From the IMG/VR virus record IMGVR_UViG_3300037502_001225, positions 1 through 40,053 of that record: a DNA stretch of 40,053 bases; one strand, written 5' to 3'. The position numbers were made by a program, and so were the translations under genes. How positions within the stretch are numbered: position 1 is the stretch's first letter; every line of letters starts with the position of its first letter. Source of the DNA: a virus. Positions 23,258 to 40,053 of this stretch are shown one piece after another. The notes under the pieces were generated by a model. It worked only from the letters and a program-made list of their open reading frames with translations, made no database searches and was not told where the DNA came from.

Positions 23258-26200
23258 ATGAGCGTAAAAGACATCGTATTAGCCGCATCAGGGCAATCCA
23301 CGACGCCACCCGCAGCGACCTTTCAGATCGAGCGCTCCCTGCGGTTTAACTCTGCGGACTCCGCTTACCTGAGCAGAACGCCGTCCGTCGCCGGTAATCG
23401 TAGAACCTGGACCTGGAGCGGGTGGGTCAAGCGTAGCTCGACTGGCTCGGCACAGACATTGTTCGGCGTTCCAAAGGCTGACCTACTGGACAACGATAGT
23501 CTTATCTTTGATTCAAGCGATCGTCTGCAACTTTATTCCGGGTCGCTTGGTGCAGCTCAGCGCGTATCGACTTCTGTCTACCGTGACCTTTCTGCCTGGT
23601 ACCACATCGTCGTTGCGGTAGATACGACAAACGCCACCGCACAGAACCGCGCAAGGATCTGGGTAAATAACGAAGAGATCACTACCTGGACAACTAATGC
23701 AACCATCTCTCAGAACTTCGAGTGGTTGATAAACGGCACAACGCAACACAACATCGGTCGCTACGCAAGCGCCGGTCACTTCAACGGCTACATCACCGAG
23801 GTGAACTTCATTGACGGTCAGGCGCTCACACCGTCAGCGTTTGGTGAGATCAGATCCACTACTGGTGTGTGGAGCCCCAAGCAGTACACCGGCTCGTACG
23901 GCACCAACGGGTTCTACCTGCCGTTCAACGACAACTCTTCGGTACTGAATCTCGGTCGCAACCGGATTCCTTTTGAGAAAGATCCAGACTGGCAACAGAC
24001 GGTGCTATTGCTCAGTGGTGATGGCAACCAGGGCGCCAACAACATCAACAACCCTGGACCTCCCAGGTATCTCGCCTTCACGGACAACAGCAACAACAAC
24101 TTCCCGATCACTGTTAATGGTGATGCCTACGGGGATAACTTCAGTCCGTTCATGACTGAGGCAGGGCAGTGGTCTGTCAATTTCACGGGGTCCAACTACC
24201 TTACCGTTCCAGATAGTGCTGGTTTAGAAATTGGCAGTAGTAACTTCACGATTGAATGTTGGTTTTACCCAACCGCTGTTGGCAACTACGCGTTCATTAC
24301 TAAAGATGCGCCGTCTGGAACACGGTCATACGGGTTTATTGCCTTCAACGACTCTGGCGTTCTAAAGACAACATTCTTCATTGCTGGCGGCGCACAACTT
24401 AATAGCACCGCAACGCTCAACATCAACGCATGGAATTTTGTTGCAGTAACTCGTTCTGGTAACACTCTGTACATAAGCGTTAACGGAACCGTAAACAGCG
24501 GGTCTTGGACAAGCACAATTCCAGATAACGGTCAGGCAACTTGGATAGGCGCTCAGAATGGTCCAGGCACAATCGGTAACTACGCCGTAGGCCACATATC
24601 GAATCTAAGGTTGGTGATAGGGGAGTCGGTTGCTTCCTACCAATCAAACTTTACCCCGCCAACATCTCCAGCGTCTCAAACATCTGGTGGGGTCACTGCG
24701 AGTAATACAAAACTGCTTCTCTGCCAATCCAATCGGTTTGTTGATAATGCAGCGACGCCAAACACGATTACGGTGTCAGGAACACCGCTCGTCAAACCTT
24801 TTAACCCGTTCACGACCACGTACAGCAGCACGAACGGCAGTGGGTATTTTGATAACACTGGCGACTATCTAACAGTTACGAGCAACGCCGCCTATCGGAT
24901 TGAAAGCAACACGACCTGGACTTGGGAGTGTTGGGTATACCCGCTGTCTCTTGAAACAACAGACGTGCTTTCGGGGAACACGACCAACGGCTCGTCTACG
25001 GGTCACGTGTTCTATTTGGCAAATGGGCTGCTACGGGTTATTCAGTACGGCGTGTCAAACTTTGCTTCTACTGCAACGGTTAAAGTGAACGAGTGGACCC
25101 ATCTTGCCGCAGTTTCAAACGCAAACTCGCTTACGTTTTATATGAACGGTGTGGCGGCTGGTACAGCAACGTGGGGTTCTGGAAGCGCCGGCGGAACGAT
25201 GTTTATTGCCGCGGGCTATACCGGCGGCGACCTATTTCACGGCTACCTTTCTAACCTGCGGTATGTTGTTGGATCGACTCAGGTGCCTCCCGCAGGTGGA
25301 CCAACATCGCCAGCAACCAACGTCACCAACACCCAACTACTCGCCCTCCAATACCAAGGTTCTGTACGCAACGTCGGGTTCATCGACAGCAGCCCGTATG
25401 ACCATGTGATCACCCGCAACCCGCTGACGGGTCCGAATGCGCCAACACAAGGTACGTTTAGCCCGTTCTCTGCGGAACCTGGGAAGTGGGGGAATTATTT
25501 TGATGGGGACGGGGATTGGTTGTCCATAGCCAACAACGCTGCATTCAATTTTGGAACTGGCGATTTCACCATTGAATGTTGGTTTTACTTGGTTGCAGAA
25601 GCCAACGCGACGGCAGGTGGAACGCGCGGTGCCAACATCGTAAGCGTAATTCCAAGTTCAGGAACCGTAAATGGATACGCGCTTTACTTAAGCGGTAACT
25701 CGACTACGACAGGCACGGGAATCGTATTTGAAAATACGGTAAGCAACACTGGATACTTTGCCACTTACACGGCAACGATCGCAAAGAACACGTGGCATCA
25801 CGTAGCAGTCGCAAGGTCTGGAACTACTACAAAGCTATTTTTCAATGGGGCTGAGGTTGTCAGCACGACGCTTGGTAATCAGACCGTATCTAATTTTAGC
25901 AACGCAACAAATATCGGCGCTTCAACATTTACTGGATACACAAGCAATTTTCCCGGCTATCTTTCTAACGTCCGCATCGTCAAAGGTCGTGCCGTTTACA
26001 CCGGCAACTTCACCCCAAGCACCGTACCCCTTGGCGCTACATCTGGCGGCACGAACCCACCCCAAGGCACAGAGACCTCTCTCCTGACTTGCCAGAGCAA
26101 TCGCTTCGTCGATAACGGTGTGGCAAACTCAGGCACAGGCTTCACCATCACTCGTAACGGTGATGTGCGTGTAACCCCCTTCAGTCCCTTTGCGCCTACT

Positions 26201-29107
26201 GCGGCGTACTCTGCTGGTACTAATGGCGGGAGTGGGTATTTTGATACTAGCGGTGATTCTTTAACGGTTCCTTACAGTTCTACACTAGCATTAGGAACGG
26301 GAGACTGCACGATTGAAGCTTGGATATACCTTGCTTCATACCCGCAGCAGTTCAATAACATTGTTGATGTTCGAGAGTCTTCGGTTAGTTATTCAAACAA
26401 TGCTATATCGTTTGGTGTAGAAAATGACGGAACATTAAACTTTTATGCTGGTAGTTACTCAAGTGCTACCCACGTACTAGAAACAGCATCAGGCAAGATT
26501 ACTCTTAACGCTTGGTATCATGTTGCTTTGACAAGAGCCAGCGGTACTACAAAACTTTATGTCAACGGTGTAGAAGAAGCATCATCAACGAACGCTTGGA
26601 ATCAAACCTCTGGAACCGCAACTACTTTGTATATCGGTAATGCGGTTGTTGCAAGGCAAGTCAACGGCTATATATCCAATCTTCGTATTGTTAAAGGAAC
26701 AGCAGTAACCCCGCCTTCTGGTGGCCCAACAGCGCCTTTGACTGCTGTTACTAACACACAACTCCTCTGCAATTTCACCAACGCAGGCATCATCGACAAC
26801 ACCGGCAAGAACAACCTAGAGACAGTCGGTAACGCTCAGGTCGATACGAGCGTCAAGAAGTTCGGCACCGGCTCGATAAAGTTTGATGGGACTGGGGATT
26901 ATCTTGCTTTTATTTCTAACCCAGACACAACTCTTGGCACAGGTGATTTTACTATTGAGGGGTGGTTTAATTCCAACAGTATTTCAACACTTCAAACAAT
27001 TATTGAAAGACGCTCTGCACTAACAGCCCGTGGAATAGCCATATTCTTAGAAACTTCAACGCTGAAGATTAGAGCAGGGGATACATCTACTACAGCATGG
27101 GAAGTTACCATAGATAGTGGAACTTTAAGTAGTTCTACTTGGTATCATTTTGCAGTAACCAGATCAGGCAATACTTGGAGAGGTTTTCTGGATGGAACTC
27201 AAATAGGTTCAAGTGTTACCTGGTCAGGTACTGTAGTTGATGAAACATCCACATGGTTAATTGGCGCTGCTTTCGGAGGTGGAGCTGGAATGAACGGTTA
27301 CATAGACGATCTCCGCATCACCAAGGTCGCTAAGTACACCGGCAACTTCTCTGTCCCCGACGCCCCCTTCGCTCTCACCACGGTAGACAACAACTACCGC
27401 CAATGGGTGCCGACCAACTTCTCGGTCACTCCTGGTGCTGGCAATGACAGCTTGGTAGACAGCCCGACACCCTACGGCACTGACACGGGTGTGGGTGGAG
27501 AGGTGCGGGGGAATTACTGTACGCTAAATCCGCTCAAGCTCAACGGCACTTTGGCGAATGGAAGTCTTGACGGGTCGTTTGCCGCAAGTTCAACCGCCAC
27601 ACAGCAAGTCACCAGTACCATTCACGTGTCTAGCGGGAAGTGGTACTTCGAAGTTCTTATTGGAACAGTCGGTGGTCCAGCAATAGGCAGACCGATCTTA
27701 GGTGTCGCTAAGGACACGGCTTCTGTTTCTGTTAACAACACCACGAGCGGTCAAGCGTGGTCGTATTACGGATACAGCGGGCAAAAGTACCACACGTCAA
27801 GCGCAGCGTTTGGCGCGACGTTTACCACTGGTGACGTAATCGGTGTCGCCGTCGATATGGACGCCGGGAATATTTGGTTCAGTAAGAACGGGACGTGGCA
27901 AGCTAGCGGCAACCCATCAACCGGTGCGAATCCTGCATTTAACAATCTTGCGGGTAGCAATGTCTCGCCGTGGGTTGGTGACGACCAATCAGTCGAAACC
28001 AAGAGTTTTACCCTCAACTTCGGTCAGCGCCCATTCGCCTACACCGCACCCTCTGGCTTCAAAGCACTCTGCACGACAAACCTACCCAACCCTGCGGTGG
28101 TGCAGGGGGATGATCATTTCAACACGGTGCTGTGGACTGGTAACGGTTCCACGCAGAGCATAACGGGTGTTGGGTTCCAGCCGGACTTTGTGTGGGGGAA
28201 GTCGCGCACTAACGGCACCGCCTCAAATCGATTGTTCGATGCTGTTAGGGGTGTTCAAAAAGCGCTTTACTCGGACTTGACTAGTGCCGAAGCGACCGAA
28301 AGCGGCTTAACTTCATTTGATTCAGACGGTTTTACGCTTGGCAGTCAGGCGGGCATGAATCAGAGCAGCAATACATTTGTCGCCTGGAACTGGAAAGCCA
28401 ACGGCGCTGGTGTATCAAACACCGCAGGGTCTATCACCAGTACGGTAAGCGCTAATACGACTGCCGGTATTTCGGTGGTGACGTATACATCTGGCGCTTC
28501 TGGGAACGCAACCATTGGTCATGGATTGGGCTCCGCCCCAAGCATGATCATTACCAAGTCTCGTACCAACGGCACTGCGCAGTGGAGCATTTTTCATGCT
28601 GCAGTTTGTACGCTCACTACTCAATACCTTGATTTCACGACGGCGGCTAGGCAAACATTTGGATCTTCCGTGTGGGGTGCATCACTTCCGTCATCTGCGG
28701 TATTTGGCATAACCAACGGTATTGCTGTTCCTGCAAGCACTAACTGCGTTGCCTACTGCTTCGCCGCAATACCAGGCTTCTCTGCCTTTGGTTCCTACAC
28801 CGGCAATGGATCGGCAGACGGTCCGTTTATTTACACTGGGTTTAGGCCTCGCTTTGTTTTACTCAGAGCATCCTCGCTTACCCAGAACTGGATTATCTTA
28901 GATACGGCAAGAGATCGTTTCAACCCCCCGGGAACCGCATTGCTTCCTAATACTAGTGGCGCAGAATCTGTATTAAATCCAGCGCTCGATATCGTGAGCA
29001 ACGGCTTCAAGTTGCGGGCGAACAATAGCGGCTGGAATGGATCGAGTGAAACAATAATTTACGCCGCCTTCGCCGAAAACCCCTTCAAATACGCACTCGC
29101 TCGATAG
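23258..29107 (+). CDS. Giant adhesin: tandem LamG modules, SPRY-like and C-terminal domain (1949 aa)
   Basis: The protein holds about six LamG/concanavalin-like modules starting near residues 25, 320, 545, 745, 985 and 1200. Each has an F-D/N-x-x-x-D-Y-L-x-V opening, an F-T-I-E-C-W-F-Y strand, a W-x-H/F-V-A-V-T-R-S-G-N-T centre and a G-Y-I/L-S-N-L-R closing strand. A SPRY-like domain (near 1440-1590, with SGKWYFEVLIGT and VGVAVDMDAGNIWFSKNG) and a C-terminal domain (near 1610-1949) with FQPDFVWGKSR repeats follow. LamG modules bind glycans, so this is most likely a receptor-binding adhesin. Base composition drops sharply at modules 5 and 6. AAGGA precedes the ATG. Confidence 0.88.
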   Translation: MSVKDIVLAASGQSTTPPAATFQIERSLRFNSADSAYLSRTPSVAGNRRTWTWSGWVKRSSTGSAQTLFGVPKADLLDNDSLIFDSSDRLQLYSGSLGAAQRVSTSVYRDLSAWYHIVVAVDTTNATAQNRARIWVNNEEITTWTTNATISQNFEWLINGTTQHNIGRYASAGHFNGYITEVNFIDGQALTPSAFGEIRSTTGVWSPKQYTGSYGTNGFYLPFNDNSSVLNLGRNRIPFEKDPDWQQTVLLLSGDGNQGANNINNPGPPRYLAFTDNSNNNFPITVNGDAYGDNFSPFMTEAGQWSVNFTGSNYLTVPDSAGLEIGSSNFTIECWFYPTAVGNYAFITKDAPSGTRSYGFIAFNDSGVLKTTFFIAGGAQLNSTATLNINAWNFVAVTRSGNTLYISVNGTVNSGSWTSTIPDNGQATWIGAQNGPGTIGNYAVGHISNLRLVIGESVASYQSNFTPPTSPASQTSGGVTASNTKLLLCQSNRFVDNAATPNTITVSGTPLVKPFNPFTTTYSSTNGSGYFDNTGDYLTVTSNAAYRIESNTTWTWECWVYPLSLETTDVLSGNTTNGSSTGHVFYLANGLLRVIQYGVSNFASTATVKVNEWTHLAAVSNANSLTFYMNGVAAGTATWGSGSAGGTMFIAAGYTGGDLFHGYLSNLRYVVGSTQVPPAGGPTSPATNVTNTQLLALQYQGSVRNVGFIDSSPYDHVITRNPLTGPNAPTQGTFSPFSAEPGKWGNYFDGDGDWLSIANNAAFNFGTGDFTIECWFYLVAEANATAGGTRGANIVSVIPSSGTVNGYALYLSGNSTTTGTGIVFENTVSNTGYFATYTATIAKNTWHHVAVARSGTTTKLFFNGAEVVSTTLGNQTVSNFSNATNIGASTFTGYTSNFPGYLSNVRIVKGRAVYTGNFTPSTVPLGATSGGTNPPQGTETSLLTCQSNRFVDNGVANSGTGFTITRNGDVRVTPFSPFAPTAAYSAGTNGGSGYFDTSGDSLTVPYSSTLALGTGDCTIEAWIYLASYPQQFNNIVDVRESSVSYSNNAISFGVENDGTLNFYAGSYSSATHVLETASGKITLNAWYHVALTRASGTTKLYVNGVEEASSTNAWNQTSGTATTLYIGNAVVARQVNGYISNLRIVKGTAVTPPSGGPTAPLTAVTNTQLLCNFTNAGIIDNTGKNNLETVGNAQVDTSVKKFGTGSIKFDGTGDYLAFISNPDTTLGTGDFTIEGWFNSNSISTLQTIIERRSALTARGIAIFLETSTLKIRAGDTSTTAWEVTIDSGTLSSSTWYHFAVTRSGNTWRGFLDGTQIGSSVTWSGTVVDETSTWLIGAAFGGGAGMNGYIDDLRITKVAKYTGNFSVPDAPFALTTVDNNYRQWVPTNFSVTPGAGNDSLVDSPTPYGTDTGVGGEVRGNYCTLNPLKLNGTLANGSLDGSFAASSTATQQVTSTIHVSSGKWYFEVLIGTVGGPAIGRPILGVAKDTASVSVNNTTSGQAWSYYGYSGQKYHTSSAAFGATFTTGDVIGVAVDMDAGNIWFSKNGTWQASGNPSTGANPAFNNLAGSNVSPWVGDDQSVETKSFTLNFGQRPFAYTAPSGFKALCTTNLPNPAVVQGDDHFNTVLWTGNGSTQSITGVGFQPDFVWGKSRTNGTASNRLFDAVRGVQKALYSDLTSAEATESGLTSFDSDGFTLGSQAGMNQSSNTFVAWNWKANGAGVSNTAGSITSTVSANTTAGISVVTYTSGASGNATIGHGLGSAPSMIITKSRTNGTAQWSIFHAAVCTLTTQYLDFTTAARQTFGSSVWGASLPSSAVFGITNGIAVPASTNCVAYCFAAIPGFSAFGSYTGNGSADGPFIYTGFRPRFVLLRASSLTQNWIILDTARDRFNPPGTALLPNTSGAESVLNPALDIVSNGFKLRANNSGWNGSSETIIYAAFAENPFKYALAR

Positions 29108-29811: not shown

Positions 29812-30405
29812 ATGTCAAATAGTTTTGCTGGTTGGGCTTTTACACCAGAGATCGTTAATGACTGGGCAAAGCTCAGCAACGTCTTCTCTGCGTACGAGTG
29901 CAATCGAATCATCGAGTACGGTGAATCGCTCCGCTTATCAGAAGCCTGTGTCGGTGGCATCGGTAACACCAACAAGAACATCCGTGACAGCAACATCTCC
30001 TGGATTCATCCTCGGGACGAAAACGCTCCTTGGATATTTAAGCGTGTTGCAGAGGCGATTACGGAACTGAACGAAAGCACCTTCAAGTTTGACCTATGGG
30101 GATTCATGGAGGCTTTGCAGTTCACGAAGTACGAAGCTCCTGGTGGGAAGTACGAAGAGCATGTTGATCGCTTTAACGGCGGCATGGTGGTTCGCAAGCT
30201 GTCTTGCTCGATCTTATTGACGGACCCAAGGGAGTTCGTGGGTGGCGACCTGGATGTCTGGACTTCTGGAAAGCCGATGCCAATGGTTAAAGAGCAGGGG
30301 GCAATGCTTGCCTTCCCTAGCTTTGTCATTCATGCGGTTAAGCCTGTCACCCAGGGTACGAGATACAGCCTTGTTGCATGGGCAACTGGTAAGCCGTTTA
30401 GGTAA
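29812..30405 (+). CDS. 2-oxoglutarate/Fe(II)-dependent oxygenase (PKHD-type hydroxylase-like)
   Basis: A 197-aa protein with the double-stranded beta-helix signature: the iron ligands H117-x-D119 in YEEHVDRF, the distal H174 in FVIHAVKPV and R184 in RYSLVAW for 2-oxoglutarate. A GGDLDVW strand lies between, as in prolyl-4-hydroxylase-like enzymes. The whole expected core is present and uninterrupted. The substrate cannot be read from sequence: it may hydroxylate Pro or Lys of a phage or host protein, or modify a nucleotide. Its place between tail genes is unusual and suggests modification of a virion protein. Confidence 0.88.
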   Translation: MSNSFAGWAFTPEIVNDWAKLSNVFSAYECNRIIEYGESLRLSEACVGGIGNTNKNIRDSNISWIHPRDENAPWIFKRVAEAITELNESTFKFDLWGFMEALQFTKYEAPGGKYEEHVDRFNGGMVVRKLSCSILLTDPREFVGGDLDVWTSGKPMPMVKEQGAMLAFPSFVIHAVKPVTQGTRYSLVAWATGKPFR

Positions 30406-30414
30406 GGGACAAAT

Positions 30415-33063
30415 ATGGCTGGGTTTGTTATTCGTGCATTCCGTGGCATGCGCCCGATCCTCGATCCGAAACTATTGGATGCGAGTGAGGCACAGGAAGC
30501 CAAGGACGTGCGCCTGTTCTCAGGGCTAATAGAGCCGGTCAAGCTCAACCAAAATGTCGTTGCCCTCAAATCCGCTGGTACTGTTCAGACCATATTCCGC
30601 GTCAGGGATAACGCCGACGAGACTTTGAACTGGTTTGAGTTCAGTGGCTCAGTAGACATTGCGCTCTCACCGATTACCCAGGATGAGTACGGAAGGGTGT
30701 ATTGGACTGGTCAGGACTACCCGCGTTATGCGCCTACAACATCAGCTTTTGCTGCGGGGTCAGGGGCTTACCCAAGGAACTCGTTCAGACTTGGAATTCC
30801 AAAGCCTACAACAGCACCAGTCGCTGTTGGAACATCTGTTGTTGAGCCAGATCGGGCTGACCGCACCTACGTCATTACGTTCACCAACGCCGACGGCTCA
30901 AAAGAATCTGGCGCTAGCAGCAGCGTCACGGTAAAGGCTTTGTCCAACATCACCGACCAAGGGACGATCGTTACATCATCCTTTACATCGGAGAGCGCGA
31001 CGTCCTATATCGTTGCCTGCTCTGAACCCCACGGCCTTGCAGCCAAAGACTTTATCGGGATCGCTGAGTCAAGCGTTGCGGGCTGGAACAACTCCTGGGA
31101 GGTCTCGGTTGTTGTCAACGAGAAGGCCTTCAAGATCAAGAATACGCAGTCTTTCCCAGGCTCAGCTCCAGCTGGGTCGTTCACGGTCAAGAAGCGTTAC
31201 CTGCCGAAGGTCAAGCTCTTCTCCTTGCCAATAGAGTCTGCTGGAAACTACGACGTAACCAACAAAAAGATCTACCGAAAGGTAAGCGGTACTTATCGTT
31301 TGGTCGCCACGATATCGCTTGAGACATCAGAGTATGAAGATGTATTCACTGACGCTCAGTTGAGTGCAGCAACAGCGATTAGCAATGTCATAAGCAGACC
31401 GTCAAGACCTTCAATCCCTCCGTCCGCCCTGGTTCCCTTTGACGATACGTCGATTGAGGACAACGTCGGTGACGAAGAAACAGAAACTCCCCCAGAGCCA
31501 GTCGTTAGTCGGCTGTATGCTATCTCGTTTGTGTCTGGCAATAGCGTTGAGGGACCGCTCAGCAAGGCGTCTGGCGTTGTCCGTGTTGTGGATGGGATCA
31601 CGAATGTCCGAATCTCTCACAACGAGAACGTGCCGACGTCTGTTCTGAAGAAGCGGATCTACCGTCAGAACCTGACCTATTCAGCCGGTACGTACAACCT
31701 CAATGATTCTGGGTTCCGCCTCGTAGCGGAAGTCCCTGTCTCCCAAGATGTCTATGTAGATACTGCCACCCAGGCATCCATCTCCTCCAATGCAGCGCCA
31801 GCCGTCCAAAACGGTCTAGACGAGCCCAAGGCGGCTTTCGGCGCGAGTGCTGTCCTACCTCCCAAAGTCCTCCCAGAGAGCCGCGTATACGTCTACACAT
31901 ACGTCTCCGAGTACGGTGAAGAAGGACCGCCATCTGAACCATCAACCCTGATAGACATAGACCCCGGTGAGTCGGTATCGATCTCCACGGGGGTAGCTCT
32001 AGTCGGGTACTCAAACATTACCAAGAAGTACATCTATCGGTCATCTACTGGCTCTAACGCAACCGACTATCAGTTCGTTGGTGAGCAGCCGGTAGCAGTG
32101 ACTAACTTCGTGGACTACAAAAAGCAGGTGGACCTGGGTGAGGTCATTCCATCGACCGGATGGGAGCCGCCCCCCTCAGATATGTTTGGCCTGCGGGTGA
32201 TGGCGAACGGTATCTTCACTGGATTTAGTGGGAAGGACATCTGCTTCTCGGAGCCGTTCTTGCCCCACGCATGGTCGAGTAAGAACCGCCTGACCGTTGA
32301 CCACAAGATCATTGGCGGCGGTGCGTTCGGTCAGTCATTGGCTGTCCTGACTGACTCATATCCATATATAGCAACTGGCGTTGATCCATCTGCAATTACG
32401 TTAGTCAAGACTTCTTTGCAGCAGGCGTGTGTGTCTGCTCGGTCGATTGTCGAGGTCGGTGATGCCGTTATCTACGCTTCGCCGGATGGGTTGGTAAAGA
32501 TCGGAATGGGCGGTATTGAAGTCATTACGGCTCGGATACTTTCCCAGGAGCAGTGGCAAGCCTACAACCCGTCATCTATCCATGCCTACATCCATGAGGG
32601 TAGGTATTACGCCTTCTACACAAAGACTGACAATACGACCGGGGTCATAGTGTTCACCCTTAATGGGGCTGACGCACCGATGACGCTTGGTTCGCAGTAC
32701 ACGACTGCTGCCCACGTTGTCGCCAAAGAGGACTCGCTCTTTATTGTTGAAGGCGGTCTCATTAAGAAGATGGATAAGGCCAGCACTGACAAGACCTACC
32801 TCTGGAGGTCAAAGGTCTTCGAACATCCGCATCAGATTAACTTTGGGGTGGCGCAAGTTCTGTGTGATTCATACGGCTCTGGCGTCACATTCAAGATTTG
32901 GGCAGACGGTGTATTGCGCCATACCCAGACCGTGACAAGCAAAGACCCGTTCCGCCTACCGTCAGGATTTTTAGCAAGGGACTGGTATGTCCAGGTGGAA
33001 GGGACGTCAGACATCCTGGCTATATCCGTAGCCCAGACTCCAGTAGAGCTTAAGGCAACATGA
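30415..33063 (+). CDS. Large tail nozzle/hub-like protein, 882 aa
   Basis: An 882-aa protein starting MAGFVIRAFRGMRPILDPKL, with LDASEAQEAKDVRLFSGLIE near the N-terminus. This is a common opening of large tail nozzle-type proteins in short-tailed phages. Beta-sandwich segments of the form YVITFTNADGSKESGASS, YAISFVSGNSVEGPLSKASG and YVYTYVSEYGEEGPPSEPST repeat three times as Ig/Fn3-like domains. The C-terminal third contains a propeller-like region (AVLTDSYPYIATGVDPSAIT, YASPDGLVKIGMGGIEVIT). By comparison with T7 gp12-type proteins it would form the tube below the adaptors. The assignment rests on order, size and these patterns. Confidence 0.7.
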   Translation: MAGFVIRAFRGMRPILDPKLLDASEAQEAKDVRLFSGLIEPVKLNQNVVALKSAGTVQTIFRVRDNADETLNWFEFSGSVDIALSPITQDEYGRVYWTGQDYPRYAPTTSAFAAGSGAYPRNSFRLGIPKPTTAPVAVGTSVVEPDRADRTYVITFTNADGSKESGASSSVTVKALSNITDQGTIVTSSFTSESATSYIVACSEPHGLAAKDFIGIAESSVAGWNNSWEVSVVVNEKAFKIKNTQSFPGSAPAGSFTVKKRYLPKVKLFSLPIESAGNYDVTNKKIYRKVSGTYRLVATISLETSEYEDVFTDAQLSAATAISNVISRPSRPSIPPSALVPFDDTSIEDNVGDEETETPPEPVVSRLYAISFVSGNSVEGPLSKASGVVRVVDGITNVRISHNENVPTSVLKKRIYRQNLTYSAGTYNLNDSGFRLVAEVPVSQDVYVDTATQASISSNAAPAVQNGLDEPKAAFGASAVLPPKVLPESRVYVYTYVSEYGEEGPPSEPSTLIDIDPGESVSISTGVALVGYSNITKKYIYRSSTGSNATDYQFVGEQPVAVTNFVDYKKQVDLGEVIPSTGWEPPPSDMFGLRVMANGIFTGFSGKDICFSEPFLPHAWSSKNRLTVDHKIIGGGAFGQSLAVLTDSYPYIATGVDPSAITLVKTSLQQACVSARSIVEVGDAVIYASPDGLVKIGMGGIEVITARILSQEQWQAYNPSSIHAYIHEGRYYAFYTKTDNTTGVIVFTLNGADAPMTLGSQYTTAAHVVAKEDSLFIVEGGLIKKMDKASTDKTYLWRSKVFEHPHQINFGVAQVLCDSYGSGVTFKIWADGVLRHTQTVTSKDPFRLPSGFLARDWYVQVEGTSDILAISVAQTPVELKAT

Positions 33064-35090
33064 CGACAAAAGTACCTACCATCCCCACCATCACAGACGG
33101 GGATGTGACGCAGATACTCTCCAGCGTCAAGATGCTTCTGGATGTGCGTGAGGGTAGGGTTGGTGACAAGCTGGATGCGAACGTCACATATCGTGACCTG
33201 GTCGGCTTGAACCTAGTCAAAGACCCTACTGGGAGCGTTGTTTACACGGGGGCTACTGGTGCTGCTGCAAACCTTCCCGTCCGCCCATTCGGTACTGACT
33301 CGGATGGGTATGACCCGACGGCGGATCTAACGCCGCCACCCGCCCCAGAAAGCGTTTCTGCTCTGGGGTCGATCGGAGCAATCTTCCTATCCTGGAGTAC
33401 GCCTTCCTACAAGAACCACGCATTTGCGGAGATCTGGCGCTCTGGTATTGATGATGTCGCAACAGCTGTTCTGATTGGTACTTCTCCAACGCAGGGCTTT
33501 GTGGATATCCCCGGAGACAATCTCCCCAGGTATTACTGGGTAAGGTTCGCCTCCCGTGCAGACGTGCGTGGTCCGTACAGCCAGAACTCGGTTAGCGCCA
33601 CTGCATCTCCGGACCCCGCTGTTCTGATTGCAGCCATCTCCGGTCAAATCACAGAATCCTCTCTAGCGCAGTCGCTATCGCAAAGAATATCTACGATCGA
33701 ATCAAGCAAGGACTTGGTTGGGTCTTTGCAGAATACGGTTGCGCGGTTAAAAGGGTCGACTGACGCAGCCATACTTCAAGAGCAGACAACAAGAATTGCT
33801 GCTGATTCTGCGCTTGCAACTCAGATTAACGGTGTTGCCGCAACAACGGGATCAAATACGTCTGCGATTGCAGATGAGATCACTGCTAGAACAAGTGCCG
33901 ATACGGCGCTTGCAACAAGCATATCGACCCTGTCATCGACGGTTGCAGGCAATACAACCGCAATAAGCAACGAACAGACGGCTAGAGCAGAGGCGGATAG
34001 CGCCTTGGCGACTAGCATATCGAATCTATCAACAACGGTTTCGAACAACACTACCGCAATAAGCAACGAGCAGACAGCAAGGGCTGATGCAGATAGCGCC
34101 TTGGCAACCAGCATATCGAATCTATCAACAACTGTAGGCTCAAATACAACCGCGATATCCGAAGAGGCAATTGCGAGAGCAAATGCGGATGGTACGCTCT
34201 TCGCCCAGTACACCGTAAAGATAGACGCAAACGGTTACGTCTCTGGGTTTGGATTGGCATCCAGTGGGGCAGCAGACAATCCGTTTTCAGAGTTTCATGT
34301 CCGAACAGATAGGTTTGCCATAGTCAATCCTTCTGTCAATAGAACTGAGGTTTCTTCTGTTACCGTTCCTGGCGACAACTCTTACACGCAGCTAAATGTT
34401 CCAAGCGGTCACGGGATAGTTGCAAACGACAAGGTATCGCTCTATGGAGACCCAGCGTTTGTTGGGGCTTATACGGTATCCGCGGTTGGCACGACATTTA
34501 TCCGCATTCCATATATCGCTGCTAGCCGAACAAGTGGGGCTACTTTGTATGTCGCAAAAGTATCTGTCCCGTTCGTCGTTGATGGTGGCAATGTCTACAT
34601 AGATAACGCATTCATAAAAGCGGCATCCATAACAAGCGCGCAGATTGCCACATTAGCAGCAAACAAAATCACAGCCGGAAACATAAACGCAACTATCGGC
34701 ATAAACGGTGGGAAGGTATACGGCGCTGAGCTGTATGCGGGTGGGACAGTAGCTGTAGAAGAGAATGGATCATTCACAGCAAACAACCCAACAGTCAAGA
34801 TTGCTGGTGGTAACGCAACATTCGTTGCTTCGAACTTCAAGATATCAAACTCTGCGACTGGCACTCCAACAGATTACACGCCGTTTCAAGTAGTCAATGA
34901 TGTGGTGCGAATCAATACCGCTCTCATAGCAAATGCGGCAATAACACTAGCGCAAATCGATACCGCAAACATTACAAACCTTTCTTCCATCAAAGCTGAC
35001 ATGGGAACCATAACGGCAGGGAAGATGCAGAGCAGTGATGGCAAGTTTGTGATTGATCTCGACAACAAGACAATCAGCATTGAGGTTTAA
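33060..35090 (+). CDS. Central tail fibre with coiled-coil repeats (DUF1983/J-like), 676 aa
   Basis: The N-terminal part (about residues 85-185) is an Fn3-type domain (SIGAIFLSWSTPSYKNHAFA and IPGDNLPRYYWVRFASRADV). Residues about 240-380 form a coiled-coil shaft made of about four repeats of A-I-S-N-E-Q-T-A-R-A-x-A-D-S-A-L-A-T-S-I. The C-terminus has the J-like/DUF1983 pattern: AFIKAASITSAQIATLAANK, ITAGNINATIGINGGKVYGA and a final GKMQSSDGKFVIDLDNKTIS. It would be a trimeric central fibre. It overlaps the previous gene by four bases. Confidence 0.8.
   Translation: MTTKVPTIPTITDGDVTQILSSVKMLLDVREGRVGDKLDANVTYRDLVGLNLVKDPTGSVVYTGATGAAANLPVRPFGTDSDGYDPTADLTPPPAPESVSALGSIGAIFLSWSTPSYKNHAFAEIWRSGIDDVATAVLIGTSPTQGFVDIPGDNLPRYYWVRFASRADVRGPYSQNSVSATASPDPAVLIAAISGQITESSLAQSLSQRISTIESSKDLVGSLQNTVARLKGSTDAAILQEQTTRIAADSALATQINGVAATTGSNTSAIADEITARTSADTALATSISTLSSTVAGNTTAISNEQTARAEADSALATSISNLSTTVSNNTTAISNEQTARADADSALATSISNLSTTVGSNTTAISEEAIARANADGTLFAQYTVKIDANGYVSGFGLASSGAADNPFSEFHVRTDRFAIVNPSVNRTEVSSVTVPGDNSYTQLNVPSGHGIVANDKVSLYGDPAFVGAYTVSAVGTTFIRIPYIAASRTSGATLYVAKVSVPFVVDGGNVYIDNAFIKAASITSAQIATLAANKITAGNINATIGINGGKVYGAELYAGGTVAVEENGSFTANNPTVKIAGGNATFVASNFKISNSATGTPTDYTPFQVVNDVVRINTALIANAAITLAQIDTANITNLSSIKADMGTITAGKMQSSDGKFVIDLDNKTISIEV
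33961..34152 (+). repeat. 96-bp tandem repeats coding for the fibre shaft
   Basis: Two nearly identical 96-bp units (starting near 33961 and 34057), flanked by more divergent ones, encode 32-residue repeats of the central fibre coiled coil. They offer a site for length change by recombination. Confidence 0.75.
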
Positions 35091-35091
35091 C

Positions 35092-35295
35092 GTGACTCTT
35101 GAAGAACTCAAAATGATTTTTGAGCCGATGGCACCAGGCTCTTTCGCTGAGAGGCGTTATCAGATTTGTAATGCATGCGAACACTTCCGCGACAAATCCA
35201 AGACATGCACACAGTGCAACTGTCTGATGCCTGTGAAAGTGAAGATCGCATCCGTTTACTGCCCATTAAAGAAGTGGACGGATGAGCCACTATGA
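35092..35295 (+). CDS. Zinc-ribbon protein in tail region, 67 aa
   Basis: The GTG at 35092 follows GAGG at 7 bases. The frame is open further upstream only inside the fibre gene. Starts MTLEELKMIFEPMAPGSFAE. Four cysteines form two knuckles (ICNACEHF and CTQCNCLM), and a last cysteine lies in YCPLKKW, the usual pattern of short phage proteins encoded just before NlpC/P60 tail genes. It may bind zinc or an iron-sulfur cluster, in loose analogy to phage lambda L, which also precedes the NlpC/P60-type K gene. It overlaps the NlpC/P60 gene by four bases. Confidence 0.75.
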   Translation: MTLEELKMIFEPMAPGSFAERRYQICNACEHFRDKSKTCTQCNCLMPVKVKIASVYCPLKKWTDEPL

Positions 35296-36014
35296 ACACG
35301 AAATACGGTGTTGAGTGGGGGGATCAGTACGGTACGGTGATCTTCCCCTACGGTGACGTTATTGCTGACATAGCGTCTTACTGCAGTCTGAAGGGCGTCG
35401 AAGGTACGCAAGTTTGGCTTGAGAACATTCGTGGGAAGGCGCGGCTTACAGACAAGATGTCTGACCGCGTATTCGCCAAGGTAGCCTGCGTTAACGGAAG
35501 TAGTGATGAGATGTCAGAGCATGAGGTTGCTGCGCTTAACAATGGCGGTATGCCCATCCTGCGTATTGCGTTCCCAACTGGTGTCTACAAGTACTACTAC
35601 CCGCTTTCTATGCAAGAGAGATTTCCGTATGAGCATAGACACTGGTCTCCAGGAAGTGCTGATTGCTATCGACTCCTGCTTGATTACTACAAGACCGAGC
35701 TTGGGATCGACCTTCCGCCGGTCGTAACCCCTGCCGCTTACATAGCGCAGATGCGCTCGTACTCAGGACTGAATCTTTTCCTTGAAAACTGGAGGACGTC
35801 CGGATTCGTGCAAGTCATCTCTCCCGTTGATGGAGACCTTATATACATGCGAACAGGGGGTTCTGGTCAAGATGGTCCAGACCATTGCGGGATCTACTTA
35901 AGTGGCGATCGAATCCTTCATCACTTCCGTAATCGCATGTCAACGGTCCAAGAGTACGCGGGGCTCTGGAGGGAATCTACTGTTATGGTCCTGCGCCACA
36001 AAACACGCGTCTAA
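35292..36014 (+). CDS. NlpC/P60-like tail peptidase (lambda K-like)
   Basis: The C-terminal half is an NlpC/P60-type cysteine peptidase: C125 in SPGSADCYRLLLDYYKTEL, H198 in GPDHCGIYLSGD and H210/H211 in ILHHF supply the Cys-His-polar triad, with DGDLIYMR between them. The N-terminal 110 residues are an unassigned domain. Such proteins sit at the tail tip and cleave peptidoglycan during DNA entry. In lambda-like phages the homologue is K, encoded after L and before I and J. Its presence in a virion-protein operon fits entry, not lysis. Confidence 0.8.
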   Translation: MNTKYGVEWGDQYGTVIFPYGDVIADIASYCSLKGVEGTQVWLENIRGKARLTDKMSDRVFAKVACVNGSSDEMSEHEVAALNNGGMPILRIAFPTGVYKYYYPLSMQERFPYEHRHWSPGSADCYRLLLDYYKTELGIDLPPVVTPAAYIAQMRSYSGLNLFLENWRTSGFVQVISPVDGDLIYMRTGGSGQDGPDHCGIYLSGDRILHHFRNRMSTVQEYAGLWRESTVMVLRHKTRV

Positions 36015-36023
36015 GGAGAGCAG

Positions 36024-36779
36024 ATGTTTTTTTGGAAGAAGCCCGAAAAGGTTGTGGTCACCTGTTATACAACACGGGCTGGATTGCCTGACCTCTTCCC
36101 GCCGCAGCGTATGGTCCGCTTAATACCGGACTGGTGGAAGCAGACAAAGTCTCTCATTGACCCCGAGATCAAGAGCAATGGGACTACGAGATTTCATTCT
36201 CCGACAAAGCTGCAAAAATCTATAAAGCGTTGCTACGCTGTACAAAAACTTTTTGAGTACGGCTATTGCATACCTATGTGGTCGGATGCCTTTGTTGCGG
36301 TCAATGCCAAGGGTCCGCCAACGGCTACGGTTCCGGGTCATGAGATGCCTGGGGAACATCACCCAGTAGAACAGTACCCAGGAATGATGACCGATAACTG
36401 GGTGAACTTTAAGTTCAAGAACCCGTGGCTCATCTATACGAACAAGCCCGTTCACTTCTATCTGTCGAATCCCTTCTACAACATCCAAGAACACAACTGG
36501 CAAACCATGCCTGGGGTCGTTGAGTTTTACTACCAGCATCACGCAAACATCAACATGATATTCCGCAGGCCTAGCGGCTCCGCTGGGTTTGAGTATGAGT
36601 TCCGGGCTGGTGATGTTCTGGCTTATCTGCTTCCAATGTTTGAGCAAGACATTGAAATCAGGGCGGAGACGATCGATCAGAAGGATTACGACAAACTTGA
36701 GTTCGCTCAAAAGATCTGGTTTGGTCATGCGGAAGGCCAGCGGAAGATGAACATAGGCGGTTGTCCGTTCCATCGGTAA
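36024..36779 (+). CDS. Conserved phage protein of unknown function (DUF6065-like layout), 251 aa
   Basis: Begins MFFWKKPEKVVVTCYTTRAG with AAGGAGAG upstream. The layout is a Trp-rich segment (LIPDWWKQTKSLIDPEI), IKRCYAVQKLFEYGYCIPMW, a D-N-W-x-x-F-K-F-K-N-P-W strand and a late RAGDVLAYLLPMFEQDIEI. This resembles phage proteins sometimes grouped as DUF6065, thought to have a cupin-like fold. The HPVEQYP and HHANINM histidine-containing segments could hold a metal, but I cannot identify a complete site. Function unknown; I am not sure of the family. Confidence 0.65.
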   Translation: MFFWKKPEKVVVTCYTTRAGLPDLFPPQRMVRLIPDWWKQTKSLIDPEIKSNGTTRFHSPTKLQKSIKRCYAVQKLFEYGYCIPMWSDAFVAVNAKGPPTATVPGHEMPGEHHPVEQYPGMMTDNWVNFKFKNPWLIYTNKPVHFYLSNPFYNIQEHNWQTMPGVVEFYYQHHANINMIFRRPSGSAGFEYEFRAGDVLAYLLPMFEQDIEIRAETIDQKDYDKLEFAQKIWFGHAEGQRKMNIGGCPFHR

Positions 36780-36783
36780 GGCT

Positions 36784-37287
36784 ATGCCGGTAAGACTTTT
36801 TGCGCGCGGTAGCGACGGATTGGTAGCAATAACATCTGGGGGCGTCACGTCAGCGATGTTGCTCGACTACCTTAACAAGCCGAAGAAGAACATTGGGAAC
36901 GTATTTTTCCATTCGAACTTCAACTACATGCAGTTGCAGGCAAAGTTCACTGCAGTACTCACCCTCCCTCAAAGAAACGCAATCATTAATTATGTTGACA
37001 TACGCAAAGGACCGGATCTGATCCAGTTCTATCCGTCTTCTGGCGTTCAAAGACACACGCTCGGGTATCACGGGCTTGGGTATATCCCATTTGCCACATC
37101 TTCACGCGGCGCCAAACAAGTTACCCCGACCGCCCCGATTCAAAATTCCGGCGCGTCGCAAAGGCTTATAAACATTGAGATGGACACAAACAATGTTTAC
37201 GTATACGAACAGTGGCTTACGTACCAAAATAATCTTGGAGCAGTAACTGATACATACACTGTATGGGCTTTTAGGAATCCACAGTAA
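36784..37287 (+). CDS. Hypothetical beta-rich protein, 167 aa
   Basis: Starts MPVRLFARGSDGLVAITSGG. Beta-rich, with many aromatic residues (NVFFHSNFNYMQLQ, YHGLGYIPFATSS), and ends VTDTYTVWAFRNPQ. There is no predicted membrane span or catalytic motif. It lies 4 bases after the previous gene and touches the next. The next three proteins are similarly beta-rich, so the group may be a set of virion surface proteins. No family recognised. Confidence 0.6.
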   Translation: MPVRLFARGSDGLVAITSGGVTSAMLLDYLNKPKKNIGNVFFHSNFNYMQLQAKFTAVLTLPQRNAIINYVDIRKGPDLIQFYPSSGVQRHTLGYHGLGYIPFATSSRGAKQVTPTAPIQNSGASQRLINIEMDTNNVYVYEQWLTYQNNLGAVTDTYTVWAFRNPQ

Positions 37288-37526
37288 TGGCATACACCCT
37301 ACGAATAACACCATCCAGATTCATTGCCTCCGGGGGGAAGCTAGATAGTGTCAATCGCTACATCAGGAAGGTGTCTAGTGGGCAGGACTTGAAGTTTGTT
37401 CTTGGGCAGAACATGGATGTTAAGGGCGGAGGTTTGCGTTACGTTGACCCTGACGGAGTGAATATTGATGACTCCACTTATACGGGGACATTCTCCGGGG
37501 TTTCGACGGTGGGTATCAAGATATGA
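37287..37526 (+). CDS. Hypothetical protein, 79 aa
   Basis: A short protein with a basic N-terminus (MAYTLRITPSRFIASGGKLD), then SVNRYIRKVSSGQDLKFVLG and a Gly/Asp/Thr-rich C-terminal half (YVDPDGVNIDDSTYTGTFSG). The start ATG overlaps the previous stop region by one base, and the gene overlaps the next by four bases. No family recognised. The close coupling to the cysteine-array protein that follows suggests they are made together. Confidence 0.6.
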   Translation: MAYTLRITPSRFIASGGKLDSVNRYIRKVSSGQDLKFVLGQNMDVKGGGLRYVDPDGVNIDDSTYTGTFSGVSTVGIKI

Positions 37527-38350
37527 GTTTTTATGCAGACAACAATCGAATTCGCATTCTTGATGATACGGAAACTGTTTTCGACACAGAGAACAACATG
37601 CCGCACATTGTCGGTACGGCATACGTAACAGATGTCGGAGTGACGTTCTCAAACATACCTACGCAAGAGACGTACTACTATTTTATTCAAGTATGCCCAC
37701 CACAGTTTTTCTTCTGCACCACATCAACTCCGCCGTGTATAACTAACCCAATCTACTGTCCACCTCCGCCGTTTGTTTTTTGTCCTTTTGGGCAATATTG
37801 CTTTCCGCCTTATGTAGCGCCATGCCCGCCCCCGACACAGTTTTGTCCACAACCAGTGCAAACATGTACACCGAACATCGTGATCTGTACCAGCGTTCCA
37901 CAGTTTGCACCTCAGTATATTGCTCGCGAGTATGTTAACGATCAGGTAGTTGTAGACCTACCACAAGATGAAGACGGAAATCTTATGAGTATCGACTTCA
38001 TCGTCATACAGGCTTCTGGCTCCAGAACTGTAAGTGGTCAAGACAGGCGTCTTGAGAGATCGTTCCTGACGGCAGTGCCTCCAGGGACGTTTTCTTTCCA
38101 GGGGTCAATGATCCTTGAATCGTCGCTGCGAGATGACGGTACGTCGTGGTTCAAGAGAATCATGTCTCTGTTTGTGAACAACACGACCAAGAAGTTGATG
38201 CTAAGAGCGCAGGAGACCGTTGGTGCTAGGAACCTTACAGACCCAACTCGGTTCGATGGAAGCGGTTACCCGCTGGAGTTTAGTCCTGGCAACGAGGCAA
38301 GCACTTTCAACTTCAACCTAAAAGTGTTTTTTGGGAGATTCAAGTCATGA
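37523..38350 (+). CDS. Protein with a heptad-spaced cysteine/proline array, 275 aa
   Basis: Three parts: a beta-type N-terminus (residues 1-56, MSFYADNNRIRILDDTETVF...); a Cys/Pro/aromatic-rich array (58-122); and a beta-rich C-terminal domain (about 130-275, with IDFIVIQASGSRTVSGQD and FNFNLKVFFGRFKS). In the array, cysteines occur at 58, 65, 72, 79, 87, 93, 101, 108, 115 and 122, gaps of 7,7,7,8,6,8,7,7,7, each usually followed by Pro or Thr and preceded by an aromatic or aliphatic residue. It could be a disulfide ladder or a metal-binding rod. No family recognised. Both ends of the gene overlap neighbours by four bases (ATGA). Confidence 0.75.
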   Translation: MSFYADNNRIRILDDTETVFDTENNMPHIVGTAYVTDVGVTFSNIPTQETYYYFIQVCPPQFFFCTTSTPPCITNPIYCPPPPFVFCPFGQYCFPPYVAPCPPPTQFCPQPVQTCTPNIVICTSVPQFAPQYIAREYVNDQVVVDLPQDEDGNLMSIDFIVIQASGSRTVSGQDRRLERSFLTAVPPGTFSFQGSMILESSLRDDGTSWFKRIMSLFVNNTTKKLMLRAQETVGARNLTDPTRFDGSGYPLEFSPGNEASTFNFNLKVFFGRFKS

Positions 38351-38547
38351 GGTTTGAGATATACGCGGTCGAACAAAACCTCGGCACATTACTCACGGCG
38401 GTACGTTTTAAGGTGTATGAGAACGTCGGCGATCTTGAGCGCGTTAAGGATGACTGCCGCGTTACTGTCGAGGGAAGGTACGAGTTTGATGACGAAAACC
38501 TACTAGCCTCGGTCGAGACGATCTACAGACAATCGATGGGGATATAG
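38347..38547 (+). CDS. Small hypothetical protein, 66 aa
   Basis: Starts MRFEIYAVEQNLGTLLTAVR at an ATGA overlap with the preceding gene. It has a ferredoxin-like alternation of strands and helix (FKVYENVGDLERVKDDCRVT, VEGRYEFDDENLLASVETIY) and is acidic overall. It is directly followed by the next gene after a TAG. No family recognised. Its position suggests a component of the same virion-protein group. Confidence 0.55.
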   Translation: MRFEIYAVEQNLGTLLTAVRFKVYENVGDLERVKDDCRVTVEGRYEFDDENLLASVETIYRQSMGI

Positions 38548-38826
38548 ATGGAAGAGATCCAGCACATGGGCGTTACTGTGACGCCCAAGTATGTAAAGGG
38601 AGTCGTTGTGAGTGTCGTCGCAACCGCTCGATGCAAGTACAACGACATTATCTTTAGCCTTGACCAAGAGTGGGACATTCCAGAAGAGCGGCAAGTCTAC
38701 GCGGAAGACTTTAGTGACGCTAGGACTGGCAGTGAGGTTGCCCTTATAGAGCAGTACACAGGCCTTACGTACAGATTGTTCGCAAAGGTCTGGGAGTACA
38801 AGCAACAGCAGGAACAGCAGGGCTGA
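38548..38826 (+). CDS. Hypothetical protein, 92 aa
   Basis: Starts MEEIQHMGVTVTPKYVKGVV, then VSVVATARCKYNDIIFSLDQ, a strand-rich part, and ends in a helix rich in Gln and Glu (FAKVWEYKQQQEQQG). No membrane span. The start follows the previous stop without a gap and the gene overlaps the next by one base (TGATG). No family recognised. Confidence 0.55.
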   Translation: MEEIQHMGVTVTPKYVKGVVVSVVATARCKYNDIIFSLDQEWDIPEERQVYAEDFSDARTGSEVALIEQYTGLTYRLFAKVWEYKQQQEQQG

Positions 38827-39242
38827 TGAGGAGAATCCTGGTCGGCGAGGACAAGCTTGTTGTTCCGTGGGTAGCGCAACGCGTCAATGAAAATAGCTTT
38901 GGAGAGTGTTCCTCTATCGGTCTAGAAGAAGATGGGGAGCTTATAGCTGGGGTCGTTTACAACATGTACACCGGCAGCTCTGTGTGCATGCATGTAGCTG
39001 CAGCCCCAACCAAAAGGTGGCTTGACAAAAGTTACCTGTACGTCTGTTTTATAACCCCCTTCAAGTACATGAACTGCAACAGGGTCACTGGCTTGGTCAG
39101 AAGTGACAACTCTGTCTGCATACGATTTGTGGAGAAGCTTGGCTTCAAGCGCGAGGGAGAGATGCGTCAGGCATGTGATGACGGCACCAACCTAATTGTT
39201 TACGGGATGCTCAAAAATGAATGTAAATACCTGGAGATTTGA
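38826..39242 (+). CDS. GNAT-family acetyltransferase-like protein, 138 aa
   Basis: The order of elements fits a GNAT fold: an N-terminal strand-helix, IGLEEDGELIAGVVYNMYTG (strands 2-3), then VAAAPTKRWLDKSYLYVCFI and a YMNCNRVTGLVRSDNSVCIR stretch leading to FVEKLGFKREGEMRQACDDG, the usual N-x-x-S/C...x-L-G-F-x-x-E-G block. The acetyl-CoA pyrophosphate loop (R/Q-x-x-G-x-G/A) is not preserved. Related GNAT-like genes recur at this position in podovirus-like phages. The target is unknown, and loss of the loop raises doubt about activity. Confidence 0.75.
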   Translation: MRRILVGEDKLVVPWVAQRVNENSFGECSSIGLEEDGELIAGVVYNMYTGSSVCMHVAAAPTKRWLDKSYLYVCFITPFKYMNCNRVTGLVRSDNSVCIRFVEKLGFKREGEMRQACDDGTNLIVYGMLKNECKYLEI

Positions 39243-39244
39243 AT

Positions 39245-40053
39245 ATGAGGTATGACCACTTTTCAATGCTGCCGGAAGGCGCGTTTCATCGCCGACCGTT
39301 TGGCTACTCTCCGTCAACAATGGAGGGCGGTAAGGGGTCTGCCCCTCCAGACTTCGGTCCTCTTGCAGACGCTATGCGCGATGTCGGCGACAAGATGGAG
39401 GCGCTTGGTAACAGGCAGCTTGCGTTTGGTCAGCAGCGATACGAAGAGACGCTCCCGTTATTCCAGCGAGTGGCAGCTACTCAGCTTGAGGGGCAAGCTC
39501 TAGCAATGGAGATGGCAAGGGAGGCCGCTACCGAGAGGCTAAAGTACAAGGCTCTTGAAGATACTATTCTTGAAGACGTAAAACAGTTCAACCAAAGACA
39601 GAAAGAAGATTACTACGCCGGTATGGCTGGTGCTGACGTTCAACAATCGCTAGCCATGCAAAGAGGGCAGGCTGGCAGGAACTTGCAGCGCTTCGGCATC
39701 AACCCAAATCAGGCTAGGTTTGCTGCGTTGAATCAAGACTTCGCTCTTGCTGGTGCCGCCATGAACGCCGGAGCAAGGAACACCGCACGGAACCAAGCCG
39801 AGGCTACTGGATTCAATCTACGGAACTCTGTTGCTGGCATAGGTAGGAACTTACCTGCTCAGGCGCTCAATGCCATTGGCGTCGGCAACCAGTCTGGATC
39901 GGCTGCTGCAGGCATAACAAACTCCGCTACAGCACCAATGCTTGCTGGCTTTAGCGGGGCTATGGGAGGTCTGCAAGGCCAAGCAGGGGCTATCGGTAAC
40001 ACGGCAAACATCATGAACCAGGGCTACCAGAACCAGCTTGCGTACCAGAATCA
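39245..40053 (+). CDS. Probable internal virion (DNA-ejection) protein, 3' end outside window
   Basis: An open frame from the ATG at 39245 runs past the window end with no stop (269 codons visible). The protein starts MRYDHFSMLPEGAFHRRPFG. It then has long helices (LADAMRDVGDKMEALGNRQL, ATQLEGQALAMEMAREAATE) and a Gly/Ala/Asn/Gln-rich region (SAAAGITNSATAPMLAGFSG and similar). The helical front plus small-residue-rich middle is typical of the ejection or internal core proteins of short-tailed phages. No lytic domain is visible in the part present. GGAG lies about 10 bases before the ATG. Confidence 0.7.
   Translation, partial: MRYDHFSMLPEGAFHRRPFGYSPSTMEGGKGSAPPDFGPLADAMRDVGDKMEALGNRQLAFGQQRYEETLPLFQRVAATQLEGQALAMEMAREAATERLKYKALEDTILEDVKQFNQRQKEDYYAGMAGADVQQSLAMQRGQAGRNLQRFGINPNQARFAALNQDFALAGAAMNAGARNTARNQAEATGFNLRNSVAGIGRNLPAQALNAIGVGNQSGSAAAGITNSATAPMLAGFSGAMGGLQGQAGAIGNTANIMNQGYQNQLAYQN

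Follow-up and report, generated by a model that had tools for sequence, protein, structure and literature searches.

What a phage might do with ten cysteines placed at almost every seventh residue of a single short protein is the question raised by this locus, which lies in a window of 40,053 bases that represents a complete IMG/VR virus record. The initial annotation considered a disulfide- or metal-stabilised polyproline rod, a cysteine-based adhesive or a thiol-disulfide device. Our analysis shows that, in phages, the ladder pattern is real, precise and rare, in a case built on a single sequence.

Cysteine spacing and integrity of the ladder gene

The gene, which starts with ATG and shares ATGA overlaps with both neighbours, and the parts of its product are as follows.

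37523..38350, plus strand: ladder protein, 275 aa, without family match
37523..37693, plus strand: residues 1-57, N-terminal segment; contains I-x-x-D-D-x-x-x-x-V-F-D-T, a motif of small tail-tip accessory proteins
37694..37888, plus strand: cysteine ladder, residues 58-122, ten Cys, rich in Pro and aromatic residues, without His
37889..38347, plus strand: putative all-beta C-terminal segment, residues 123-275, Cys-free, eight strands in the AlphaFold2 single-sequence model

As the initial annotation had placed them, correctly to the base, the ten Cys codons (residues 58, 65, 72, 79, 87, 93, 101, 108, 115 and 122) run from 37694 (first base) to 37888 (last base) in frame with the unbroken 275-aa ORF, and their gaps (7,7,7,8,6,8,7,7,7) keep a near-heptad period through the 8,6,8 shifts in mid-array. 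These ten are the only Cys of the protein, the flanking segments holding none, and the Pro-rich stretch that carries them (20 Pro in 69 residues, ~29%) does join two other segments as claimed. When the end Cys and the number of Cys are fixed, all gaps fall within 6-8 residues in 2,907 of 3.87e9 arrangements (P=7.5e-7), a value that is conditional on a pattern picked after inspection and argues against accidental spacing while saying nothing of function. Shuffling the region 100,000 times gave, at most, a run of eight Cys with gaps of 6-8, and this once only. In the ladder, there are neither C-x2-C or C-x-C pairs nor His, and all Cys are at least six residues apart.

Of the concerns voiced in the initial annotation, that this segment may be frameshifted or non-expressed, the first is not borne out. 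We saw no sign of a frameshift in the ladder gene, whose ORF (37523-38350) is uninterrupted, begins within the upstream gene's stop codon and terminates within the start codon of the next gene. Codons in the ladder are chosen in a gene-like manner, much as in other structural genes, the synonymous codon score being -1.077 vs -1.065 expected and -1.126±0.030 for random synonyms (~1.6 sd apart), which is a modest signal.

Public DNA contains many Cys-heptad frames that come from translating 21-bp tandem repeats. For the ladder, a recent 21-bp minisatellite origin of the spacing was rejected because DNA identity between the units outside the Cys codon (0.299) is at the background set by codon shuffles (0.295±0.016) and because the Cys codons are mixed (TGC 4, TGT 6). 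Conservation at the remaining heptad positions is slight (amino acid identity 0.16). Since all ten Cys are in register despite DNA that has diverged to background, selection on the ladder Cys seems to be the simplest explanation.

The tail-tip module and the flanking segments

Upstream of the ladder gene are genes for portal, head and large virion proteins as well as for a protein of 882 aa that matches phrog_511 (internal virion protein); the neighbourhood, judged from its sequences, is a podovirus-like virion module. The closer flanks are Phage_Tail_Tip and NlpC/P60 genes upstream and GNAT and virion structural protein (phrog_8003) genes downstream, which agrees with the earlier description of a virion-region protein.

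33060..35090, plus strand: tail-tip protein (Phage_Tail_Tip PF09327; phrog_496, phrog_2589)
35292..36014, plus strand: NlpC/P60 protein (PF00877; phrog_30 minor tail protein)
36024..36779, plus strand: phrog_7084 protein (PHROG match), function not assigned
36784..37287, plus strand: 167-aa protein in the variable tail-tip module, without family match
37287..37526, plus strand: 79-aa protein in the variable tail-tip module, without family match
38347..38547, plus strand: small protein, 66 aa, overlapping the ladder gene stop; L172 and L129 have genes of similar size ahead of GNAT
38548..38826, plus strand: small protein, 92 aa, without confident family in ORF and family searches
38826..39242, plus strand: GNAT-like protein (phrog_4470), a conserved landmark following the variable module

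A small ORF (35053-35295) located between the tail-tip and NlpC/P60 genes codes for six Cys that are spaced as C-x2-C, much like a zinc ribbon. The sole phage-record match of the phrog_7084 protein (36024-36779) is in haloarchaeal virus HRTV-15 (25% identity), and a 1,949-aa protein (23258-29107) apparently is a mosaic of domains, with hits in separate stretches to many PHROGs of virion structural, baseplate and tail fibre type. The window proved free of tRNA genes, and 35000-40053 gave no Rfam match.

Using six aligned 882-aa-type proteins, we gathered 80 IMG/VR loci, in which the tail-tip gene is followed by GNAT homologues with a variable set of small proteins in between. Gene order comes closest in L172 (tail tip, NlpC/P60, small proteins, 156-aa protein, 71-aa protein, GNAT). 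Here and in L129 the positional equivalents of the ladder protein (L172:10168-10635, 156 aa, one Cys; L129:15532-16341, 270 aa, two Cys) lack the ladder, and no Cys ladder was seen in open frames of the related loci across the fetched stretches. Because these equivalents have just 1-2 Cys and no ladder, the latter probably is a lineage-specific insertion or linker replacement. Homologues without the regular spacing had been put forward as evidence that would undermine the ladder; the equivalents, weakly homologous as they are, do lack it, and to our minds this makes the ladder dispensable to the presumed family without showing it to be spurious. Among named phages, the best relatives of the 882-aa protein are Aeromonas, Vibrio, Microcystis and Stx phages (31-35% identity); overall its relatives are mostly from phages of Proteobacteria, and one of 294 Planctomycetota genomes was found to have a relative.

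The small tail-tip accessory proteins that we call MSYG-type begin MSYG-I-x-V-x-D-x-x-G-x-x-x-F-D, and some of them match phrog_4047, phrog_2427, phrog_7961 or phrog_3370. The ladder protein is like them in being coded between tail-tip and GNAT genes and in carrying the N-terminal motif; it is unlike them in that they have few Cys and no ladder and, in contrast to some of them, it has no library HMM match. With a curated N-terminal profile (19 variable-module segments from related phages) the ladder protein scored 11.7 bits, as high as only two of 2,000 shuffles, while 12 other N-termini of the phage gave -3.0 to 1.3 bits and members left out one at a time 3 to 36 bits; an iterated version of the profile had drifted into tail-tip repeats and was dropped for the curated one. 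The match thus appears specific but weak, being below library level, and the ladder protein probably is an MSYG-type small tail-tip accessory protein. Its C-terminal part gave pairwise scores within shuffle range against accessory proteins (BLASTP E 0.35 or worse).

Structure prediction, as proposed by the initial annotation, was run on the full protein and on its C-terminal part. In the full-length AlphaFold2 model (pLDDT 44), the ladder (~40) has neither structure nor helix, and strands are suggested, with low confidence, for the N-terminal part; fold matches of this model were judged meaningless. Modelled alone, the C-terminal part is predicted to be all-beta (pLDDT 61, pTM 0.58); its fold matches are weak, most of them phage proteins that are uncharacterised, one a named tail fiber and none with E below 0.001. 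The earlier notion of two beta-type domains is plausible, if weakly supported. A coiled coil with helical heptads was rejected in view of the Pro content and the helix-free model, and the N-terminus of the ladder protein (MSFYADNNRIRILDD) is hydrophilic by eye and does not qualify as a secretion signal.

Cysteine heptads elsewhere in phages and bacteria

We found no homologue of the ladder protein in PHROGs, Pfam, NCBIfam, PDB sequences, peptide-pattern scans of IMG/VR and GTDB or 49 related viral records, and tblastn against ~50,000 phage records returned nothing, whether the query was the full-length protein (E up to 0.01) or each half (E up to 10); one homologue search ran without positive control, so its silence weighs little. 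Among the IMG/VR matches listed for eight strict heptads or for the exact ten-Cys layout, no other Pro-rich Cys ladder survived the open-frame filter. A complete IMG/VR scan for three C-P-x3-T-x heptads gave just short frames or near-identical DNA repeats, and scanning IMG/VR and GTDB for four C-P heptads uncovered mostly 21-bp satellites, plus, from GTDB, a Planctomycetota protein with 44 Cys.

What the heptad search of viral metagenomes, suggested at the outset, did retrieve is a set of phage-contig proteins of C-[ST]-G-L-x-G-[DN] (CSGLRGD) type with 15-33 Cys in heptads stricter than those of the ladder. They occupy at least five loci (L004:2789-3376; L010:4091-4540, minus strand; L026:783-1349; L097:3-785; L109:4515-4937, minus strand), and several end in the common motif ITDEERxxGVxIxxL. 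Sister proteins (L101, L108, L118, L068) carry Val or Ala where these have Cys, so that Cys is one option at this repeat position. Although both are Cys heptads on IMG/VR contigs, the CSGLRGD-type proteins are Gly-rich and Pro-free, unlike the ladder, which also lacks their Gly at the sixth and Leu or Ile at the fourth heptad position, and an alignment of the two gave z -1.3. So the claim that nothing comparable is described in phages is partly right and should be softened: a Pro- and aromatic-rich homologue was not found in our searches, whereas Cys heptads as such do occur on phage contigs.

Following the 44-Cys protein, a ladder search of Planctomycetota found matches in seven of 294 genomes, most being long C-P-x3-T-x ladders (L554/L556, L557, L558, L560, L562, L564, L565, L566) with 15-64 Cys and occasional 5-, 6- or 8-residue gaps (5, 6 and 8 in L554). 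Neither of the two proteins examined matched Pfam or NCBIfam, and these ladders apparently form an unnamed repeat family. They share with the phage ladder a seven-residue Cys period that extends, with slips, over at least eight repeats and, commonly, a Pro after Cys; they differ in that Thr occupies the sixth heptad position in 181 of 211 cases but in none of ten in the phage. Homology beyond Cys spacing was rejected, since alignments of the phage ladder to the Planctomycetota ladders gave z 0.5-0.9 against Cys-fixed shuffles, and matches of the ladder in the Planctomycetota genomes are at chance level (five at E 0.001-0.009 per genome, 294 genomes). Convergence thus seems the safer reading. 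Since several Planctomycetota ladders start with a signal-peptide-like segment, Cys-heptad spacing may be used outside the cytoplasm, and these ladders would point to a general, apparently unnamed repeat architecture in which solving one fold would inform the bacterial and the phage ladders alike.

A possible disulfide-stiffened stalk and competing readings

The reading we favour, a serious possibility if not quite a probable one, is that of a small tail-tip accessory protein with a Pro-rich ten-Cys linker stiffened after lysis by up to five disulfides. We infer that this protein may be incorporated into the virion as a small accessory component of a podovirus-like phage tail tip, coded in the variable module between tail-tip and GNAT genes, and that the linker between its N- and C-terminal beta segments would have been replaced in this lineage by the ladder. 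Phages assemble in the reducing cytoplasm, so such disulfides must form late: the ladder would stay reduced while the particle is assembled and become oxidised in the oxidising medium met after lysis, where its Cys may pair inside a single chain or across the chains of an oligomer. A floppy Pro-rich linker would thereby turn into a stiff, protease-resistant stalk, which may hold the distal C-terminal domain off the tail, to which the N-terminal segment would be anchored. That the ladder would be extended and non-helical is suggested by its Pro content, the lack of a predicted helix and aromatic residues between the Cys. Among the rod, adhesive and thiol-device readings, a disulfide rod is the most economical. 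In its support we count the restriction of all Cys to the linker, the tail-tip-module position, the N-terminal profile match and the ladder-free equivalents, and against it the ladder without AlphaFold2 structure and the shuffle-level scores of the C-terminal part against accessory proteins.

Precedent for Cys that lend strength outside the cell comes from the Agrobacterium phage Milano, where disulfides cross-link neck, collar, sheath, capsid and baseplate, particles turn fragile on DTT reduction and structural proteins contain 2.1-2.4% Cys (PMC10811340, PMC10491603). In Milano, however, the disulfides are spread between folded proteins, whereas in the ladder protein all Cys are in one periodic linker with a proposed strengthening role. 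Cys make up 3.6% of the ladder protein and just 0.7% overall of the structural genes counted, which argues for a local device rather than a whole-virion disulfide strategy. Covalent cross-links are known from few phage tails. If true, a linker kept soluble and reduced inside the cell but stiff outside it would provide a simple post-lysis maturation switch. Going further, a soft, reduced ladder that locks into a disulfide rod on release, perhaps unlocks at the host surface through thiol exchange and is convergent with the Planctomycetota ladders would amount to a new tail principle; we hold this to be quite unlikely.

A different role for the Cys would be to bind zinc, copper or iron during assembly and so create a folded rod or metal-triggered device. 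The reducing assembly environment would suit this, and ten Cys could form two tetrathiolate sites, but the absence of C-x2-C pairs and His from the ladder speaks against a metal site of the classical sort and in favour of disulfides, as do Cys that are never closer than six residues. Moreover, the phage's own zinc-ribbon-like ORF does have the usual C-x2-C spacing, and the PDB sequences hold no relative of the ladder protein, so to our minds metal binding is decidedly improbable. Nearly the same doubt attaches to an exposed thiol adhesive, in which free or strained Cys would exchange with thiols or disulfides on the host surface and fix the tail to the cell. The tail-tip position of the gene fits such an adhesive, and the secreted Cys ladders of Planctomycetota imply that surface partners exist in some bacteria. 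Yet relatives of the 882-aa protein point mostly to Proteobacteria rather than Planctomycetota, and it is in Cys spacing alone that the phage ladder resembles the bacterial ones. This we regard as improbable.

It is also conceivable, albeit unlikely, that the ladder is no device at all but a relaxed low-complexity linker: a heptad repeat that has decayed and in which the Cys register survives, without function, from an old 21-bp expansion. Consistent with this, positional equivalents do without it, DNA collections hold many 21-bp Cys/Pro satellites and heptad positions other than Cys are barely conserved; an unselected array, however, would be expected to lose Cys codons, and all ten are in register at background DNA identity. 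Very unlikely, in our view, is a hydroxyproline rod shaped, with or without disulfides, through hydroxylation of the ladder Pro by the 2OG-Fe(II) oxygenase coded at 29812-30405 (PF13640, phrog_61). While this oxygenase gene does lie in the structural region, PF13640 spans many substrate classes with no direct link to the ladder, and L186 and L188 have the oxygenase but no Cys ladder in their fetched stretches, so that co-occurrence of the two is suggestive at most. The oxygenase gene itself, placed within the virion gene block and common to only three fetched viral loci, possibly codes for a proline hydroxylase for virion proteins.
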